NCBI GenBank assembly: GCA_013388855.1
Contig: JACAEM010000020.1
Span: 1-64,000, forward strand
Reading direction: 5' to 3'
Length of the DNA stretch: 64,000 nt
Source: Chloroflexota bacterium
GTDB lineage: Bacteria > Chloroflexota > Anaerolineae > Anaerolineales > Villigracilaceae
Positions 45,027-64,000 of this stretch are shown here, one piece after another (within the stretch, counting starts at the first letter, position 1; each line of letters begins with the position of its first letter). The notes under the pieces were generated by a model. That model saw nothing but the letters and a program-made list of their open reading frames with translations, was not told the origin of the DNA and ran no database searches. The position numbers were made by a program, and so were the translations under genes.

Positions 45027-45057
45027 CCATATTGACCACTTTTGAGGAGAGGTGTGT

Positions 45058-47925
45058 ATGAGCAAAGCGTTCAGGTATCTTGTTTCTGCCGTTGCGATAT
45101 TGACCCTGTTGTTGGGGTCGGTGGCAATGGCCCCAGCAGGGAAGCCGGTTCAACCTGCGCCACTCCGCTTGCAAAGCGGAATCATCGTTCCCGCCAGAAG
45201 CAATCTGGCGGCAAACGGGGGAAAATACTATATCGTTCAGTTTGAAGGTCCAGTCGAACAGTCATGGAAGGATGCCGTCACCGCTCAGGGCGCGGAGGTT
45301 TTGGATTACATCCCCGACTTTGCGTTCAAAGTACGGATGAGTCCCGGCGTGGCGCAGAAGGTGGCGGGACAGTCCTTCGTCAGCGTGGTGCTGCCCTTCG
45401 AAGGCAGATTCAAATTCCAGGCGGGCGTGATGCGTGATAGTGTTACGCGCGTGTATATCGTCCGCTTCGAACGAGGGTCTGATTTTGCGGCGGCTCGCGG
45501 TCTTATCCAGCGCGCCGGCGCGCAGATCCTGGCGATGGATGGTGATATAGCACTGATTGCCGCGAACAGCGCGTTGTTGGATTCTGTTGCGAATGTGGAA
45601 GATGTGGCATCCATCAGCAATTTCTATTTGAACGAGACGTTTATTGTCCCGCGTGGAGCGCCGGCTGCACCTCCCGCCAATGATGCCAGCCGCGACATTA
45701 TCGGTGCGACCGCGGCCAACTCGCGCGGTTATGATGGTTCGACCCAGATCGTGGCGGTTGCCGATACCGGTCTCGGCGGCGGGACGACAACCACTGCCCA
45801 CCGCGATATCAACGGGCGTGTTACTGCCATTTACAACTGGCCGGGTTCAGCTGGTGGTTGTTTCCAATCCATCACCAATGATGGTTCGATTGATGTGGAT
45901 TCGGGGCACGGCACGCATACCGCCGGTTCGGTCTTGAGCGCTGGTGAAGCCAGCGGGTTGGGGAGAGGCTCCGCTCCGGCGGCGCAACTGGTCTTCCAAT
46001 CGACCGAAAATTACGCAACGATCTCTACGATTTGTCAGATTTTGTATGGATATACCAACGGCTATTACCTCACCGGTCTGCCGAGTAATTTGCAGAACTT
46101 GTATTCACAAGCCTATAATGCCGGTGCGCGCATCCATTCCAATTCATGGGGAGCGGCGGTGGCAGGCGATTACACCAGTGACAGCGTCAACACCGATACG
46201 TTCGTATGGAACAACCGTGACATGGTCATCACCTTCTCGGCTGGCAATGAAGGCATCGATGCCAATAGTGATGGTGTAGTCGATAACGATTCCATCGGTT
46301 CGCCCGGCACATCGAAAAATGTCATCACCGTGGGCGCAAGCGAAAACCAACGCCCCGATAACTTCCCGTGCGATACGGGGCTTTCGTACACCACCTGTGC
46401 CTCGCAGAGCGGACTCAACGTAATTGCCACGTATGGCACATCCTGGCCCAGCGACTATCCTGCTAATCCGCTCAACAACGACCCTGCCGCGGGGAACTCC
46501 AATCAGATGGCGGCGTTCTCCAGCCGCGGCCCCACCGACGATGGGCGTATCAAACCCGATGTCGTCGCTCCCGGCACATGGATCCTTTCTGCGTATTCTG
46601 ATCTGTACCAGCAGGGCTATGATGCTTCTGCAAATCCGCAAAATGGCGCGTATCAGTACGATGGCTGGGGTTTCCCCTACAATTCGTATTACAAATATAT
46701 GGGCGGCACGTCCATGTCCAACCCGCTCACAGCAGGCGGCGCAGCTGTGGTAAAGGATTACTATAGCAAGGCATATGGTTTCAATGCCACCGCGGCGCTC
46801 GTCAAAGCCACACTCATCAATTCGGCAGTGGATATTGCGGATGAGAACAATGATGGCGTCAACGACAACGATTTCCCGATCCCGAACAACCACGAGGGGT
46901 GGGGGCGTATCAATCTCGATGCCGCCACCGACGGCACGATCCAATATGTGGACGAAGGTGCCGGCTTGAGCACGGGCGGCAACGCCGTCTTCCAGGTGAC
47001 CACCACCGGCGGTCCGCTCAAAGTCACCGTCGTGTGGACCGATTATCCCTCCACTGATACTGCCACCGTGACTCTCGTCAACGACCTTGATCTCACAGTT
47101 TCCGGTCCGAGTGGCACCTTCCGCGGCAACGTATTCTCCGGCGGCTGGAGCACGACCGGTGGTTCCGCCGACCGCCGCAACAATGTCGAGAATGTCTATA
47201 TCCAGTCGCCCGCGGCTGGTACCTACACCATAACGGTCAACGGCTTCAATATCCCGAACGGTCCGCAGAAATTTGCCCTCGTTGTGGATGGCGGCACACT
47301 CGGCACCGGTCCCACGCCGACGCCGGGTCCCACCAACACACCGACGAACGCACCCACCGCGACCGTCACACCCACACCCACCAACACCCCGGCCCCTACC
47401 ACCAGCACGGGTTTCCTGTCTCCGTCTGCCAACGCGGCTGTTACATCCGGCTCAGGCGATAATAACGGTTATCAAACCAATCCCTCCAATGCCTATGCCA
47501 ATGACAGCGTCTTTGCCAGCGATGTGAACAGCGGCACCGGCACAAGCACCAGCTATACCAGCTCGCAGAAAGACCGGCATGTCTTCTATAACTATGGATT
47601 CAACATCCCGGCTGGCGCAACGATCAATGGCATCCAGGTCCGTGTGGACGCCCGCGCAGACCGCGCAAGTGGCACGCGCCAAATCTATGTCCAGTTCTCC
47701 TGGGATGGTGGAACCAATTGGACAACCGCACAGAGCACAGGCAACCTGGGCACCAGTGAAGCCGCTTATACCCTGGGCGGCACGACCAACACATGGGGGC
47801 GCACCTGGACTGCAAACGACTTCAGCAATGCGAACTTCCGTGTGCGCGTCATCGATGTATCAAATAACACATCACGTGACTTCTATCTCGACTACATCGC
47901 TGTCAATGTGACCTATACACCCTGA
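45058..47925 (+). CDS. secreted S8 (subtilisin-like) peptidase with C-terminal beta domain
   Basis: 955 residues from ATG 45058 (GAGGAGAGG upstream). A signal peptide (YLVSAVAILTLLLGSVAMA) and a propeptide-like region (30-210) precede the catalytic domain, with D236 in VAVADTGLGGG, H284 in DSGHGTHTAGS and S552 in GGTSMSNPLTAGG. A P-type beta domain (640-740) leads to a Thr/Pro-rich linker (TPTPGPTNTPTNAPT, about 745-780) and a final domain (785-955) ending DYIAVNVTYTP, which resembles the end domains of two later secreted proteins. It likely degrades proteins outside the cell. The triad is complete. Confidence 0.93.
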   Translation: MSKAFRYLVSAVAILTLLLGSVAMAPAGKPVQPAPLRLQSGIIVPARSNLAANGGKYYIVQFEGPVEQSWKDAVTAQGAEVLDYIPDFAFKVRMSPGVAQKVAGQSFVSVVLPFEGRFKFQAGVMRDSVTRVYIVRFERGSDFAAARGLIQRAGAQILAMDGDIALIAANSALLDSVANVEDVASISNFYLNETFIVPRGAPAAPPANDASRDIIGATAANSRGYDGSTQIVAVADTGLGGGTTTTAHRDINGRVTAIYNWPGSAGGCFQSITNDGSIDVDSGHGTHTAGSVLSAGEASGLGRGSAPAAQLVFQSTENYATISTICQILYGYTNGYYLTGLPSNLQNLYSQAYNAGARIHSNSWGAAVAGDYTSDSVNTDTFVWNNRDMVITFSAGNEGIDANSDGVVDNDSIGSPGTSKNVITVGASENQRPDNFPCDTGLSYTTCASQSGLNVIATYGTSWPSDYPANPLNNDPAAGNSNQMAAFSSRGPTDDGRIKPDVVAPGTWILSAYSDLYQQGYDASANPQNGAYQYDGWGFPYNSYYKYMGGTSMSNPLTAGGAAVVKDYYSKAYGFNATAALVKATLINSAVDIADENNDGVNDNDFPIPNNHEGWGRINLDAATDGTIQYVDEGAGLSTGGNAVFQVTTTGGPLKVTVVWTDYPSTDTATVTLVNDLDLTVSGPSGTFRGNVFSGGWSTTGGSADRRNNVENVYIQSPAAGTYTITVNGFNIPNGPQKFALVVDGGTLGTGPTPTPGPTNTPTNAPTATVTPTPTNTPAPTTSTGFLSPSANAAVTSGSGDNNGYQTNPSNAYANDSVFASDVNSGTGTSTSYTSSQKDRHVFYNYGFNIPAGATINGIQVRVDARADRASGTRQIYVQFSWDGGTNWTTAQSTGNLGTSEAAYTLGGTTNTWGRTWTANDFSNANFRVRVIDVSNNTSRDFYLDYIAVNVTYTP

Positions 47926-55528: not shown

Positions 55529-55557
55529 TTGCGTTTTGAAAATTGAAGGCTTATACT
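55529..55557 (+). promoter_or_regulatory. promoter candidate of the beta-helix protein
   Basis: TTGCGT (55529-55534), 17 bases, TATACT (55552-55557), 75 bases before the start codon 55633. Confidence 0.4.
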
Positions 55558-55632
55558 AAGGTTTGTCTAGGCGGATTGGCGAAATCAGACAACACGGTGG
55601 AAAGAATATTCATCTTCCCGGAGAGAAATCTC

Positions 55633-58163
55633 ATGTTCACTAAAAACCGAATTGTGCCTGTCATACGTTTCATTCTATCTCTGATCCTGGTGGTTGGAGC
55701 GATGGGGCTTCAATCGGTTAGCCCTGTGATTGCATCCACGTTGACGGTAACGAATACCAATGACAGTGGTGCGGGTTCTCTGCGTCAGGCGATTACCGAT
55801 GCGGTGCCCGGTGATACGATTAACTTCGACGCGGCTTTATCTGGGCGGGTAATTACGTTGTCATCCACATTGGTCATCAATAAGAACCTGACAATCGACG
55901 GCTCCGCTCTGTCGACGCATGTCAGCATTAGTGGGAATGATGAAGTGAGGATCTTCACCATTGAGCCGGGCGTCATGGTTGTGTTGAATGGTCTTATCAT
56001 CCGAAACGGTTATTCTGCAGGATCCTATGGGGGAGGAATCTATAATAGAGGTAATCTGACGGTTCTCAATAGTACATTATTGGAGAATACTGCTGCAGGA
56101 TATGGTTTAGGCGGCGGTATTTTCAGTTTGTCTGGCACTTTGATCGTGGAGAACAGCCTTTTTATTAGGAATACGGCTACGGAAGGCGGCGGGCTCAACA
56201 ACAATAATGGCAACACCGGGAGCCTGTCCAATGTTACATTTTTCGAGAACACAGCTTCCATCGGAGGAGGAGTGAAGAATCATGGAGTGCTGAATCTCTC
56301 AAATGTCACAATATCCCATAACATTGGTTCAGGAGGAGTTGGCGGTTTATACAATGCCGGCACCTTGAATTACAAAAACAGCATCATTGCTAATTCCTTG
56401 GGTCAGGATTGTTACACAGATGATTTCGGGACGATTGGCGTCAATACGAACAATCTGGTGGAAACACCTGCTGCTTCGCCAAACGGTTGTGGTGCCCCAG
56501 CCTGACTGGTAATCCCCAATCGGGACCGCTTGCTTATGGCGGCAGCCTGACTCGAACCATGGCGCTCCTGCCCGGCTCCTCAGCCATTGACGCGGGCGAT
56601 GACGCGAACTGTCCTGCCACCGACCAACGTGGTGTGACGCGTCCGCAGGGAAGCCACTGCGATATGGGAGCGTATGAAAATGAACAGGCGCCTGCAATAT
56701 TTATTACAGATATTCCCAATTATGGCTGGCCTCTGCCTGACCCATACCCCAACGATGCAAATGATGACCCCATGCTCGGATGGGTGAATAATGTTATCCC
56801 GCCTGATGCCTACAAAAACTATTACGTGACTTGTTACATCTATGTGCCAGATTACCCCGGAATCACCGGCGAAAGCGGTTGGTGGGTAAAACCCACTTAT
56901 GGACTCACAAAGACATCGATCAACCCCGATGGGACCTGGAAATGTGATGTCACTACGGGTGGGTATGACGAATATGCCACGAAATACCGGGCCTATCTCT
57001 TCCCCACCACCCTTGCCAACCCGCCGATGTTGCCGCCTGCGGATTGCGAACGACCATCCTGTGTGGAAGTACTGCGCGACGATATTTCCCCTCCCGAAAC
57101 AACCATTACGACTTGTCCTGATGCTTTCACGGTCTTGCATGACGTGAGTTTTGAATTCCACAGCAGTCATACCGGGAATCTGTTCAACTGCATGCTGGAT
57201 GGCGTCGAAAATGCCTGTACCAGCCCGCAAAGTTTTAACAACCTGGAGGTCGGCGAGCATACCTTCTCTGTTTATGCCACGGACAGGGTCGGGAATGTCG
57301 ATCCATCACCGGCTTCCTGCACATGGGAGGTGTATGTTCCCTCGATGGTCTCCTCCATCACCCACATCGACCCAAACCCTGCCAGCGCCGAGACGGTCCG
57401 TTTCATCGTCACCTTTTCGGAAACAGTCACGGGGGTTGACCTCAGTGATTTTGCCCTTACAACCACCGGTGCAGTGGATGCCTGGATTGCAAATGTGAGT
57501 GGGACGGGAACCGCCTACACAGTCACCGTAAAGATCAAGACCGGCAAGGGCACGTTACGCTTGGATGTGGTGGATGACGACAGCATCAAAAACCTGGACA
57601 GTAACCCGCTCGGCGGCGCGGGACTGGGGAACGGCAATTTCGCGGACGGCGAAATGTATTTTATCGACCGTGACCCCTCTCTGCACTCGATGATCCTCGC
57701 GCCTGTTTCCCTCAGGACCCAATCTGGATCGGTTTCCGGTTCACTGCCGACCCTGGGTGTTCTCGAACAAAATGGGACGGAGGACAACCCGGCTGTGTAC
57801 ATCACTTTCCAAACGCCGGGGACGAACTACCTCGGCTACCTGTCCTATCGTCTGCCGGGTACAGTCAAGCTGTCGACGATCGCCTCCCTGAATTTGCAGG
57901 TGAACTTCAAAGGACCCGCCTCCTCCACTCAACTATGGACATGGTCCGTCTATGACTGGACGATGCGGCGATGGGTGAAGTTGGGAGACACGACCGGACT
58001 CAGCGCGGATGTGTGGCAAACGCTAACATTCGGGATTCGGAATCCCGGCCGGGTCATTTCGGTTGTTGGGCGTGAGCTTCGCATCCGCCTGCAATCGAAT
58101 AATCCCGCCGGTGACGCGAAGGTTGATTACATGGTGGTTGATCTCAATTATCGATCCGAATAA
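55633..58163 (+). pseudogene. secreted beta-helix/Ig-like protein, frameshifted
   Basis: ATG 55633 begins a signal peptide (IRFILSLILVVGAMGLQSV). Residues 35-280 are a right-handed parallel beta helix of the choice-of-anchor type (TVTNTNDSGAGSLRQAITDA; repeats such as GGIYNRGNLTVLNSTLLENT). Close to 56486-56505 the frame shifts: one frame ends NGCGAPA, the other continues SLTGNPQSGPL and ALLPGSSAIDAGDDANCPAT, which normally follow in one polypeptide. The second part holds Ig-like segments and a C-terminal beta domain (57690-58163) shared with the next gene. About 843 residues once joined. It may be a surface protein; the function is unknown. Confidence 0.75.
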
Positions 58164-58328: not shown

Positions 58329-60917
58329 ATGCGCTTTCCCCTTCGCATAACCCAACTAAATCGCTTCCTCCTGTTAGCCGCTGTGATCGCCTCTGGCGTT
58401 GGTTTCATACCGTCGGCTCAGGCGCAGGATCAGAGCCGGGTGGAACTCCGTCAGTTCGACATGCTGGGCGCGGATACCGGCTGGGTGTTGCTCGATCAAA
58501 AAATATTCTGGACGTCCGATGGGGGGCAAGCATGGAAGGATGTGTCTCCGACCCTGCCGTCCGGCGCAGTGGTGCAGGATGTTTATTTCGCTGATTCGGA
58601 GGCGGGCTGGGTGTTGTTCAGCATGCCCGATCCCGCGGGCGGCGCACGCTTCCATCTGGCGCGCACAGCCGACGGCGTAACCTGGTCGACGCGTGCGCTG
58701 CCGCTGTTTACGCCGGGAGAGATCGCCTCGTATGCCGAAAAAGCGGAGATGGGGTGGTTCGACGCGCAAACCGGCTGGATTTCTGTCAAGCAGGCCAGCG
58801 GCTCGAATTTCAGTGTGGGCGCGCTGTTCGTGACGACCGACGGCGCAGACACGTGGAGCCGCTTCGCGCTCCCGGTGGCGGATACCGTTTATTTCAACGA
58901 TCCGCAGACCGGATGGGCGGTCGGTGGACCAACCGGCGACCGCGTATTCCAGACAGACGACGCGGGCGCAAACTGGCAGGAGGTCAGTCCTGCAAAGATC
59001 GAAAACGCTCAGACCACCGCATACGTCCCCACGACCTCCGATGGAGATGGTTTGCTGGTAACAATGAGCGTTGGCGCGGTGAACAGCCTGAACGTGTACC
59101 GACCCGATCCCTCCGGCAGATGGTCACTCTTCGCTCAGGTGACGTTGAATGCCCAGCCCGGACTCATCGGGTTGTCCATCCTCGACCCGCAGAATTTCAC
59201 CGCGACGATCCCCGGCACGGATTCCATCGTGCGCATGGCAGACGGCGAACCAGGTGTGCTCACCAATCAGGACGGGCAGTCTGCCTCTATCGTGACGTTG
59301 GATATGATTTCGCCGGAGACCGGGTGGGCGAAGTCGGTCGAGTCAAGTTGTGCCACTGTTGCTTCGCTGGATGATTCGTCTGGCACTGTCAATTGCTCCT
59401 CCACAACCCGCCTCCTCCGCACCGCAGACGGTGGCGTGACGTGGCAGAGCGTGATGCTTCCATCCGGCGCGTTGAGCGCCTCGCACATCACCACGTTCCG
59501 CACCGACCGCCTGACGACCTTGAATTCCCTGTCCGATCTGGGCAATGCCCAACGGATGGTCGGTCAGGGGTTCGACAAATGCGAAATTCCCACCCTTGGG
59601 CAATTGCAGACATGGGCGGCGAGCAGTCCGTATAAAGCGGTCAATCTCTACATTGGCGGTTCCGCCCGCGCCTGTGATAACCTAGCGCTGACCTCCAATT
59701 ATCTGAACCTGCTGTCTGAGCAGGGCTGGAAGTTCATCCCCACCTGGGTGGGACCGCAGGCGCCTTGCACCAATTATTTCTCGAAGATGAGTTGGGATAG
59801 ACCCACCGCGCGCAGTCAAGGGATCGCCGAGGCAAATCTCGCAGTGGATACCCTCGCGGCGTTGGGGTTAACCTTCCCCGACACGACCGGTTCCGTCGTC
59901 TATTACGACATCGAATATTACGGTTCATCCGATACCGAATGCCGCGGTGCGGTCAAAGCCTTTATGAACGGCTGGGTGTCGCAGCTGCACGCGCGCGGCA
60001 ACCTGGCAGGGGTGTATGCCTCCCCCGCGTGCGACACCGGCTTGAGCGATTTCCAGTCCATTGCCTACGTGCCGGATGTGGTCTGGATCGCCGCCTGGTA
60101 TTACAACGTCGGTTCACCCAACAATACCTACGACCCCACCGCCAGCGTTTGGGACTGGCTCGGCAATTGCATGCCAAACACCGTCTGGGCGGACCATCAG
60201 CGCCTCCGGCAATACGCGGGTCCACACAATGAAACCTGGGGCGGGTTGACCATGAACATCGACAGCAATGTGCTGGATGGTGTGGTGGCGATGTCTTTTC
60301 TGCCGAATCCGCCCCCCTACCTCACGCCGACATCCATTCCGACGCGACCGCGTCCTGTGATGAGATCGGATGCGCTGACTCCCGCCTCGGTGACCACACA
60401 ACTCGGAGTGACGGGCGGCTCCGTTCCAAGCCTGAGCCTGTTCGACCAGACCGGTGTGGAGGACGACCCTGCCGCGTACCTTTCCTTCCAGACGCCTTCC
60501 ACGTATTACCTCGGATACCAATCCTTCTTCCTGCCGGAGGAGACCCAATCGCGGCTGGTCTCGACCATGCTGTTGCAGGTCAATTTCAAGGGACCCGCCT
60601 CCCAAGTGTGGACATGGTCCATCTACGACTGGGGCAAGAACTTGTGGGTTAAGCTGGGCGACTCCATCGGCGCGACCCCGGGGCAATGGAATTCCCTGCT
60701 GTTCCGAATCCGCAGCCCGAAGCGATACATTTCTCCGGGGCGCGAGATCCGCATCCAGTTGAAATCGAACAACGCAAACGGCGACGCAAAGATCGATTAC
60801 GAAGCGCTTCACATCACGTATGTTTCTGTTCCTGCCACACCCGCGCCTGTGACGCCTGTTGCCACCCCGAAGCGACCGGGCATCTTCTCCGCGCCGACTT
60901 CCACGCTAGGACCGTAG
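58329..60917 (+). CDS. secreted propeller/DUF1906 (glycoside-hydrolase-like) protein
   Basis: 862 residues. After the signal peptide ([19 protein letters not shown]), residues 35-400 form a BNR/Ycf48-like propeller with repeated [17 protein letters not shown]-type units. Residues 425-650 resemble DUF1906 (Rv2525c-like, GH25-fold): [37 protein letters not shown] and [10 protein letters not shown]; the acidic pair DIE could be catalytic. A Pro-rich link leads to a C-terminal beta domain (690-830), also found in the preceding gene and ending [11 protein letters not shown], and a Pro/Thr tail. The protein is probably surface-attached and may cut cell-wall or other glycans, which is inference. Confidence 0.8.
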
Positions 60918-61274: not shown

Positions 61275-64000
61275 ATGGTTACCAAAAAGTTGAGTATGTT
61301 GGGTCGCATGTTGGTCTTTGGTGTGACCGTGATCGCCCTGCTCGTAACGAGCGCGGGCGGAATACATACTGTACGCGCCGGATCTGATGAAGGCGCTCCG
61401 TTGCCTGCCATCGGGAATACTGCGATCGTGTTCGTTTCGCGCCAAATCCCCTCGGAGGGCAGTGTTTATTATCAGTCCGGCGGATCGATGCCGGGCGTGA
61501 TGCCGTACAGCCGATTCCATGTGGCATCGCCGGGCAAGTTGATCGTGCGCGAAGCGAACGGCACCCTGCGGGTGTTGGTCGATGGCTCAAATCCGACTGC
61601 GGCTTCGCTCAACCTGATCGATGTGAACGCGCCGGATGTCTCTTATGACGCGACGAAGATTGTGTTCGCCGGTCTGGTCAATGGTTCGTATTCACGGGGC
61701 ACGATGAGCAATCCCGGTGCATGGCGTCTCTACGTAATCAACGTGGATGGGACGGGACTGCGCCAGTTGACCTTTTCCGATAGGAACATCAACCTCTCAC
61801 AGTTTGGAGGGATCGCTTCGAGTTTCTCCCGCTACGATGACACCGACCCAGCCTGGCTCCCGGATGGACGCGTGGTATTCTCCTCCACGCGCTACCCCTC
61901 GTTTGGCATGTACGGTGCGTCGCGTACCAGCAACCTGTATGTGGTGAACGCCGACGGCACCAACCTGCACCGCATCACCTCCGAACGTAACGGGGCGGAT
62001 CGTCCCATCGTGGACCCGCTGACGGGCAGGATCGTCTATTCCCGCTGGTGGCGTAACCTGCGCGTGGCGACAAACGACATGGGTACGATTCCCGATCCGA
62101 GGTTCCCCGGCGGGTACATCATGAAGGATGGCCTGTGCGCCATCAATCACTCCGGTGCGGATTGTTTCGAGCCGGGCGGTAAGTTCAATATGGAACGCAA
62201 TTCCTGGCATCTGGCCAGCATCAACCCGGACGGTACCGGATTGGCGCAGTTCGCTGGTCGTTCCAACACCACATTCCACGGCGCTCTCGTCAACCATGCC
62301 TACGGCGGCTCCTTTGCCCCAGATGGCTCATTCTACGCCAACTTCTTCCCGATGACGAACGGGACCGAGGCTTCGGGCTTTGGCGGCATCCGTCATTATG
62401 ATCGCGGTCCGAACGGCTATACCCACGTCATCGGCATTACCACGCGCGATGAAAGCGTCCAACAGTTTGTGCGGACGAATCCCAATTCCTACGGCGTCTA
62501 CGTGGGGAACTACGCTGGCGAGCCGGAAGTTTTGCCCGATGGAAGCCTCGTCATTTCGTGGGCGCAGGATACGCGGCAGGATTACGGTCTCTACACCATC
62601 AATGCAGACGGAAGCGGCTTGACCCTGCTGTACGACAATCCCGGCACGACCGAACTGCGCGCCCGCGCGATTCGCGTCCGCCCGGTGCCGCCCATCATCC
62701 CCGACAAGGTCACCACGGTTGCCAGCGAACTGCCTCCTCTGGCGCAGGGTCCCTATAACAAGGACGGTAACTTTACCTTCGACGCGTTGAACGTCTACTT
62801 CAATGCCCCGGTCGATGTGGACATCCTGAATGCCCTGCCGGTAGGCTCCGCGAATACCATTCGCTTCTACATCGACCACCAGCGGACGCAGCAGACCGGC
62901 TCGATCGAAGCCCTGGACTGGCCCATCCTGCTCGATGAAGTGTTGATCGACCCTGATGGGTCGGTGACCGCCAGTTCCCCGGCGAATGTGCCGCTCTTCG
63001 AGCAAATCCGCACCAAGCCCCAATCCGGGTACACGGTGCCGCTGGTTGGGAGCAATGCATTGAGCATGGAATTGCCCGGCGCGGCGCATGTGGCAGGAGA
63101 GAATTTCGGACGACCCGGTCAGGTGATGCGATGTGTGGGTTGCCATGCAGGTCACACGATGATCCCTGTGCCGTCCAACCCTGCCGACGCACAGTGGACG
63201 AATCTTGCCACCGGCGCGACCGTCACCGTTTCTTCGACAGGCGGCGGCTCGAGCAAGGGAATCAATGACCGGCGTGTGAAACTGAACGTATCCGGCGCCG
63301 GCCCCCGCTACTGGGTCAGCCAGTCGGGCAGTCCCACCACGCAATGGGTGCAATTGACCTTCCCCGTCCCTGTCACCGTGCGCACCGTGCGCCTGTATAA
63401 CCCCGCCAGTTCCAACTCCAATATCAAGGTGTTGGATGCCACCGTGCGCCTGTTCAGCGATACCGCCGCGACCGTCGAAGTGGCGAGCAAGAATTCCGGC
63501 GCCCTGACCGACACCGGCACGAATGTCAACTTCAATGAAGTGCTCACCCGCGTGGTGCGCATCCAGTTCAATTCGGTAAACGGGAACGCCGCCGCGCTCG
63601 GTGAAGTGGAAGTGATTGCGCGCGCCGAGGCCGATACCACCACCTCCGTCCCGACCAGCACGCCCACCGTCACCTTTACCCCGACCATCACAGGGACGCC
63701 TGCCACCGAAACGCCGACCAGTACGCCTCTCGTAAGCGAAACTCCAACCAATGTTCCGACCTCTGAAGCGTCGCCCACCAGCACGCCGACCACAGGAGTC
63801 GGACCCACAAGCACCTTTACCCCGCTGCCCTCGGCTACAACCACTTCTGTGGCGCCGTCCAACACGCCCACCGTCATCCCGACCAACACATCCGCCTCCA
63901 CGCCGACCGCGACCGGCTCTCCGATACCGAGCGCCACTGCGACGAATACGGTAATCGTGCCCACCCTGCCGTCCGTTCCGGGAACGTTGAACGTGACCGC
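61275..64000 (+). CDS. secreted PD40-propeller protein with CxxCH haem motif, cut by window end
   Basis: At least 908 codons with no stop before the edge. A signal peptide (MLVFGVTVIALLVTSAGG) precedes a TolB/PD40-type propeller (about 50-490) with repeats like DPAWLPDGRVVFSSTRYP and VNADGTNLHRITSE. Near codon 617 is MRCVGCHAGHTM, a single CxxCH that would bind haem c. A discoidin-like domain (about 650-785) follows, then a long Thr/Pro-rich linker (TSTPTVTFTPTITGTP) to the edge. A propeller followed by a CxxCH recalls the hydrazine synthase alpha-subunit family, a cautious comparison. GGAGGT at 61265-61270 sets the start. Confidence 0.8.
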   Translation, partial: MVTKKLSMLGRMLVFGVTVIALLVTSAGGIHTVRAGSDEGAPLPAIGNTAIVFVSRQIPSEGSVYYQSGGSMPGVMPYSRFHVASPGKLIVREANGTLRVLVDGSNPTAASLNLIDVNAPDVSYDATKIVFAGLVNGSYSRGTMSNPGAWRLYVINVDGTGLRQLTFSDRNINLSQFGGIASSFSRYDDTDPAWLPDGRVVFSSTRYPSFGMYGASRTSNLYVVNADGTNLHRITSERNGADRPIVDPLTGRIVYSRWWRNLRVATNDMGTIPDPRFPGGYIMKDGLCAINHSGADCFEPGGKFNMERNSWHLASINPDGTGLAQFAGRSNTTFHGALVNHAYGGSFAPDGSFYANFFPMTNGTEASGFGGIRHYDRGPNGYTHVIGITTRDESVQQFVRTNPNSYGVYVGNYAGEPEVLPDGSLVISWAQDTRQDYGLYTINADGSGLTLLYDNPGTTELRARAIRVRPVPPIIPDKVTTVASELPPLAQGPYNKDGNFTFDALNVYFNAPVDVDILNALPVGSANTIRFYIDHQRTQQTGSIEALDWPILLDEVLIDPDGSVTASSPANVPLFEQIRTKPQSGYTVPLVGSNALSMELPGAAHVAGENFGRPGQVMRCVGCHAGHTMIPVPSNPADAQWTNLATGATVTVSSTGGGSSKGINDRRVKLNVSGAGPRYWVSQSGSPTTQWVQLTFPVPVTVRTVRLYNPASSNSNIKVLDATVRLFSDTAATVEVASKNSGALTDTGTNVNFNEVLTRVVRIQFNSVNGNAAALGEVEVIARAEADTTTSVPTSTPTVTFTPTITGTPATETPTSTPLVSETPTNVPTSEASPTSTPTTGVGPTSTFTPLPSATTTSVAPSNTPTVIPTNTSASTPTATGSPIPSATATNTVIVPTLPSVPGTLNVT

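Follow-up and report, generated by a model that had tools for sequence, protein, structure and literature searches.

A putative exported single-haem relative of hydrazine synthase alpha with a carbohydrate-binding-type domain in a Chloroflexota genome

Introduction

Hydrazine synthase (HZS) was formerly thought to be without homologues outside anammox bacteria, according to the abstract of Hagglund et al. (2025; PMC12758564); proteins with an HZS_alpha domain outside this group have already been published, and a wider family with other substrates has been suggested (passages of PMC12758564 and PMC10732223). We describe here a gene at the end of a 64,000-nucleotide stretch of DNA from a Chloroflexota bacterium; this stretch, termed the window, comprises the first 64,000 of the 66,492 bases of contig JACAEM010000020.1 (assembly of 4.03 Mb, 99% complete). 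The gene starts with ATG at position 61275 on the plus strand, and its product is very probably an exported, single-haem relative of the HZS alpha subunit (HZSalpha).

In HZSalpha of Kuenenia stuttgartiensis (PDB 5C2V), the parts are ordered as in the window protein: first a propeller, then a middle domain, then a haem c site of the form CxGCHxG. Haem alphaI of HZS is five-coordinate and not reducible even at -610 mV, and His587 binds zinc and Tyr591 binds iron (passages of PMC12607021). In contrast, the window protein has no counterpart of Tyr591 (a histidine stands one residue before), no haem alphaII and no beta-gamma partner seen nearby, and in its family a domain of the CBM32 type comes after the site, and the tails mark export. 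The HZSalpha homologues of clades I-IV (passages of PMC12758564), with which the present family was compared by description, were picked by co-location with a fused beta-gamma gene, whereas the present family has no neighbour with two CxxCH motifs; site alphaI is without Tyr591 in clades I-III, where section 8 describes a two-residue gap at Ser590/Tyr591, and alphaII is absent from clades II and III. The main text of that study names Chloroflexota only as co-cultivated bacteria, and the words 'discoidin' and 'carbohydrate' do not occur in it.

Propellers of the TolB/PD40 type share the fold (Z about 26), but TolB is a periplasmic component of the Tol-Pal system without a haem site. Galactose oxidase (PDB 1GOF) and CBM32-bearing sialidases also combine a secreted propeller with a galactose-binding domain of the CBM32 type (Z about 17 for the discoidin part). 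Their propellers are of the kelch or sialidase type, with copper-tyrosyl or hydrolytic active sites and no haem, and the resemblance concerns the general plan rather than any homology in the catalytic part. Full-text literature searches, judged by titles and abstract openings and with most subscription papers outside their reach, brought up no published account of the present branch; it is apparently a so far undescribed subclass, centred on Chloroflexota, in which the haem site is followed by a domain of the carbohydrate-binding type.

Relationship to hydrazine synthase alpha

The reading frame is still open at the end of the window and was read on the assembly contig to a stop at 64505, which supplied the 3' end missing from a preliminary description of the window and gave a protein of 1076 residues. 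The parts listed in that description (a PD40 propeller, the sequence MRCVGCHAGH, a discoidin-like domain and a Thr/Pro linker in a secreted protein) were all recovered in this frame. A TolB/HZSalpha-type beta-propeller (61395..62681, +; residues 41-469), assigned from PD40 and from fold and profile matches to chain 5c2v_A, is followed by an HZS_alpha-like middle domain with approximate borders (62682..63110, +; residues 470-612). The corresponding family models score low: PD40 reached 17.8 bits in the protein (Pfam cut-off 20.9), while one repeat of the gene exceeded the cut-off with 24 bits in a six-frame search of the genome; HZS_alpha (PF18582) reached 20.8 bits at residues 541-578 (Pfam cut-off 26.6); the NCBIfam model of the TolB propeller gave 26.5 bits against a cut-off of 343, and hydrazine_alpha (NF052339) gave 27.5 bits, below the equivalog cut-off of 800. 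Among 26 family members, hydrazine_alpha matched 25, all far under this cut-off, and PF18582 matched 13 at E 0.01, with one homologue (locus L078; loci and genomes are cited by our working numbers) over the cut-off at 28.0 bits. Weak matches of Shiga toxin A models in one of the 26 members (E 0.0015-0.0081) were taken as chance.

When the family profile was compared with the PDB, HZSalpha was the top match (5c2v_A, E 2.2e-8; E 1.6e-9 once the paralogues were included). The predicted model, which has a mean pLDDT of 74.7 and is weak near the motif, likewise retrieved 5c2v_A at rank 1 in Foldseek (E 2.9e-21), and VIA-align superposed model residues 3-602 on chain residues 51-604 with Z 33.3 and an rmsd of 3.6 over 446 residues, whereas TolB chains gave Z of about 26. 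The comparison with HZSalpha that the preliminary description had proposed was apt. Membership of the TolB propellers only was rejected, since TolB ranks behind HZSalpha, whose match also extends over the middle domain.

In the profile of the paralogues (E 1.8e-6 overall), CVGCHMGHA was aligned to CSGCHYGSY of 5c2v (chain positions 556-564, counted by hand). With the offset of 27 that is implied by the published His587 and Tyr591 (passages of PMC12607021), His624 of the window protein maps to His587, His627 to Ser590 and Thr628 to Tyr591; the position of the tyrosine is taken by Thr, Ser, Ala or Met in the relatives, one residue after an invariant histidine. By this mapping, the window protein keeps the alphaI attachment site and not its tyrosine ligand, a loss that agrees in kind with the Ser590/Tyr591 gap of clades I-III (section 8 of PMC12758564). 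No motif for haem alphaII, which HZS has in a C-terminal cytochrome domain, was found in the 1076 residues, which hold a single CxxCH, and a discoidin domain follows the site. As judged from profiles and predicted fold, the protein is a member of the HZSalpha superfamily, but not a hydrazine synthase.

The haem motif and its conservation

The CxxCH (CVGCH, residues 620-624) holds two of the four cysteines of the protein and lies within MRCVGCHAGH (residues 618-627), with its codons beginning at 63132; the predicted haem c attachment site (C620, C623, H624) and the invariant H627 together form CVGCHAGH (63132..63155, +). When the letters of the core were shuffled 20,000 times, a CxxCH appeared by chance in 5 trials. 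C620, G622, C623, H624, G626 and H627 were invariant in all 31 aligned proteins, whose identity with the window core falls as low as 32%, and the same pattern, CxGCHxGH, was present in 27 of 27 proteins in a separate count; the other two cysteines are lost outside close relatives. The count of 31 omits two near-copies (L013, L039), a locus whose contig stops ahead of the motif (L035), a frameshifted locus with the motif in another frame (L037), and a distant partial match without CxxCH in its own frame (L040). One of the six patterns used in the locus search was CHAGHTMI, which biases the set of loci toward the motif; members with CHTGHS, CHSGHT, CHVGHT, CHNGHS, CHMGHA or CHKGHM, which this pattern could not find, still keep CxGCHxGH.

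Haem supply and export

A signal peptide (61275..61382, +; residues 1-36, MVTKK...LLVTSAGGIHTVRA) was assigned by eye from the sequence. Two matches of PF01578 over the cut-off were found in the genome, and a ccm cluster with CcmE, CcmF, CcmH, CcmG, CcmA, CcmB and CcmC was read by eye from the frames, PF01578 being its sole model-tested part; multihaem cytochromes adjoin this cluster. All 30 homologue-bearing genome entries contain PF01578, and represent at most 27 distinct genomes (G055/G401, G323/G411 and G330/G410 give identical matches). The window organism thus combines an exported CxxCH, as far as the signal peptide was recognised by eye, with cytochrome c maturation genes, as a c-type cytochrome requires. 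Neither of the two weaknesses foreseen in the preliminary description, a genome without such genes and an unconserved CxxCH, was encountered.

The discoidin domain and the C-terminal tails

The domain behind the haem site (63201..63611, +; residues 643-779) matched DUF7402 above the Pfam cut-off (E 2.1e-9) and F5_F8_type_C slightly below it (27.8 bits against 28.2); DUF7402 was found in 25 of 26 members at E 0.01. In a second model, comprising the middle and discoidin domains (mean pLDDT 75.4), the discoidin part matched CBM32 modules from glycosidases and, in galactose oxidase, the galactose-binding domain, with Z 15.6-17.8 among the 50 matches listed, with an rmsd of 1.9 over 130 residues for CBM32 folds. 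The modelled domain is thus predicted to be a galactose-binding-like beta-sandwich of the CBM32 type.

A Thr/Pro-rich linker (63621..64000, +) extends beyond the window and leads to GH114_assoc (PF14741; contig 64056-64421, residues 928-1049). The tails after the discoidin domain vary: many members have little or none, GH114_assoc is shared by the window protein and its close relatives L012 and L014, L025 has a fibronectin III domain, and all four Bacteroidota and Ignavibacteria members (L033, L034, L038, L039) carry type IX sorting tails. These sorting tails, as read from sequence, are the best evidence for a function outside the cell. Together with the invariant CxxCH and the ccm genes, they suggest that a haem c outside the cell, as put forward in the preliminary description, is the best reading of the protein.

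Genomic neighbourhood

In the 326 kb of sequence flanking 28 loci, read in all six frames and shortened at some loci by contig ends, there was no frame of at least 100 residues with two CxxCH motifs, which a beta-gamma homologue would hold; hence, no beta-gamma partner is seen nearby. A single CxxCH occurred in six frames clear of the gene (twice at L017, and at L021, L027, L029 and L030) and in two more that are antisense to it. Among greedily chosen frames of at least 90 residues, none within two places on either side of the gene contained a CxxCH (28 of 28 loci); such frames may lie on the wrong strand, for which reason the six-frame reading was used. The genome's only CCP_MauG match (G000:C44:269977-270426) was rejected as a beta-gamma candidate, being fused to a beta-helix (by eye) and not to a propeller. 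The frame in question (L085:7783-10011) joins a di-haem cytochrome c peroxidase/MauG domain to a parallel beta-helix of the NosD type (by eye), an unusual architecture.

No shared operon emerged from clustering of 285 frames at 29 loci including the target: there was no widely common neighbour, and the largest neighbour family besides the target comprised five loci. Genes for polysaccharide synthesis recur at some loci. Glycos_transf_1 was found near the gene at six of 18 loci (L021, L024, L027, L028, L029, L032) against 1.57 expected from genome density, a figure that ignores clustering and uses genome totals summed by hand (694 matches, 96.1 Mb); it was also found at L030, and in seven of the 74 neighbour frames scanned, out of 111 listed. 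O-antigen ligase-like genes are present at L027, L031 and L032, and BcsB-like (cellulose synthase subunit) genes adjoin four of the five Roseiflexus-type paralogues (L073-L077; one by Pfam, three by BLAST), the fifth locus having no BcsB-like gene by BLAST.

Proposed function and alternatives

A fuller reading of the protein as a glycan-anchored haem enzyme (monohaem oxidoreductase), whose chances we regard as evenly balanced, starts from the computed homology, fold and CxGCHxGH invariance, the absence of alphaII and Tyr591, the CBM32-type fold and the lack of a two-CxxCH neighbour, and adds what we infer: bound haem, an open coordination site, sugar binding, a substrate, an electron partner and a reaction. 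The protein would be exported and probably be bound to the cell surface or matrix; a single haem would be joined to C620 and C623 by the Ccm system, in a pocket that lies behind the middle domain, abuts the propeller and corresponds in position to haem alphaI of HZS; the axial ligand would be H624 or the adjacent H627, and the opposite face would be open to a substrate or a small ligand. With its CBM32-type domain the protein may dock on galactose-like sugars of exopolysaccharide, made by the cell itself or by a neighbour, and it would be fixed outside the cell by the exchangeable tail (GH114_assoc, a type IX secretion tail, or none). Its likeliest job would be that of an oxidase- or peroxidase-like haem enzyme at a surface polysaccharide.

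Several observations weigh against this interpretation. Both models are weak in the stretch around the CxxCH (block means of 47-68 in the first and 58-85 in the second) and no pocket can, for this reason, be read from them; the attachment of haem to the CxxCH is likewise a prediction made from sequence. The HMMER domain in which one CxxCH motif is aligned with the other scores just 8.7 bits alone, and a profile of the middle-plus-haem region by itself did not retrieve 5c2v_A at E 10, giving only weak PDB matches, e.g. to a fucose-binding lectin and XIAP. Ccm/Ccs-type genes, as represented by PF01578, are present in 183 of 201 Chloroflexota genomes of at least 90% completeness, and their co-occurrence with the haem propeller therefore says little; it was rejected as support and only leaves the haem reading unrefuted. 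The polysaccharide neighbourhood is a weak argument, as it was noticed post hoc, concerns a minority of loci and is missing at the window's own locus, and glycosyltransferases cluster.

The preliminary description had left the choice between an extracellular oxidoreductase and an electron-transfer protein. A catalytic or ligand-binding haem would be favoured over a conduit, because there is one haem site, no multihaem neighbour and a site of the HZS alphaI type. An extracellular electron-transfer cytochrome, in which a six-coordinate haem relays electrons between cells, minerals or cytochromes and the sugar-binding domains serve only as a hold on the matrix, is unlikely. Its partners may exist in the genome, given the multihaem cytochromes beside the ccm genes; the protein is probably outside the cell, and H627 is an invariant additional histidine. 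Yet a histidine at i+3 would have difficulty in reaching round to the opposite side of that haem, one haem site per 742 core residues would make a poor wire, no frame with two CxxCH lies near the 28 loci and no CxxCH occurs in the greedily chosen frames up to two places away, and the site matches alphaI of HZS, which is five-coordinate and stays unreduced at -610 mV (passages of PMC12607021).

More doubtful is a structural or adhesive protein, i.e. a lectin-like adhesin or matrix scaffold in which the CxxCH holds zinc or a structural haem. The CBM32-type and GH114_assoc domains, the Thr/Pro linker and the tandem secreted proteins with a common C-terminal domain would suit such a role, and the histidine of the CxxCH binds zinc in HZS (passages of PMC12607021). 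However, six positions (C, G, C, H, G, H) kept without exception down to 32% identity would be unusual for a mere scaffold. Furthermore, a CxxCH that is exported from a ccm-positive cell is often loaded with haem.

Similarly doubtful is a haem counterpart of galactose oxidase, i.e. a secreted propeller enzyme that a CBM32-type domain would dock on surface polysaccharide and whose haem, derived from HZS alphaI and with an unusual CxGCHxGH ligation, would oxidise or cross-link glycans; this judgement covers the same proposal taken jointly with His627 in the role of Tyr591 and His624 free for a second metal. If it were true, HZSalpha would have been recruited, as one branch, from an older family of haem proteins that are extracellular and associated with glycans.

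Hardly to be expected is a nitrogen-oxide chemistry akin to that of hydrazine synthase (with NO, hydroxylamine or ammonia, and a beta-gamma-like partner elsewhere or none), for which the HZSalpha homology at site alphaI and the alternative substrates proposed for hydrazine-synthase-like genes of other phyla (passages of PMC10732223) can be cited, but Tyr591 and haem alphaII are missing, there is no two-CxxCH neighbour, the genome's sole CCP_MauG match is part of a beta-helix fusion (by eye), and the published homologues are likewise without key residues (section 8 of PMC12758564).

Distribution of relatives

The genome scan gave 29 related loci, mainly in metagenome-assembled genomes (MAGs) of Chloroflexota, with two in Bacteroidota, two in Ignavibacteria and a few under other labels. 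In a profile search of 400 Chloroflexota genomes, 41 had any match at E 0.001, mostly short matches to the propeller; a near full-length core was present in nine including the window's own (table read by eye), and a tenth core (G152) is truncated by a contig end. The distribution is patchy, even inside genus and family. In five genomes of family f61 there is a longer paralogue that shares the motif (CVGCHMGH or CIGCHMGH), and G011 has a more distant paralogue with CTGCHKGH. In the tree, the paralogues and the Bacteroidota pair are well separated, long branches meet, and the Chloroflexota require three changes; the MAG labels Acidobacteria, Gracilibacteria and Myxococcaceae may reflect mis-binning, and no transfer is claimed.

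A partner-less, single-haem branch in Chloroflexota, Bacteroidota and Ignavibacteria, equipped with a domain of the sugar-binding type, would reveal the role of the alpha fold without hydrazine making, and would offer a simple protein for studying the alphaI haem site alone. Matches to HZS_alpha should, with caution, not be equated with anammox potential.

The secreted gene array at the window locus

The preliminary description placed the gene in a cluster of three giant secreted proteins, which is roughly right: two upstream genes on the same strand share GH114_assoc with it, and a frameshift appears to have split one of the two. The nearer gene (58329..60917, +) encodes Ycf48-like BNR repeats, an Rv2525c-type glycoside-hydrolase-like domain and GH114_assoc near the C-terminus. 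The other (55543..58163, +), with choice-of-anchor Q and a C-terminal GH114_assoc, is read in two frames of 320 and 558 residues (55543-56505 and 56487-58163), which overlap near 56487-56505 and are, by their sequence, probably one gene; both domains lie in the second frame, which by eye lacks a separate signal peptide.

GH114_assoc is C-terminal in the three tandem genes (57759-58130, 60444-60800 and contig 64056-64421). It has seven copies in the window genome, the others on G000 contigs C29, C4 and C30, and none in 14 control genomes; elsewhere in the genome it is fused, by eye, to subtilase-like, CAP-like, glucose/sorbosone-dehydrogenase-like and MBG-repeat proteins. It is, on the sequence patterns, a reusable module of secreted proteins.

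A further secreted gene with PMP-like repeats and an MBG domain (L009:3955-5691) begins at contig position 64754 and is cut off by the contig end. A terminal frame of contig C4 has the same first few residues and GH114_assoc near its end; because of these shared residues, the window contig and C4 may adjoin at the MBG repeat, with an array of four members. Upstream of the array, at 45052-47925, lies a gene for a secreted subtilase (PF00082) with a Thr/Pro linker and an extra C-terminal region.

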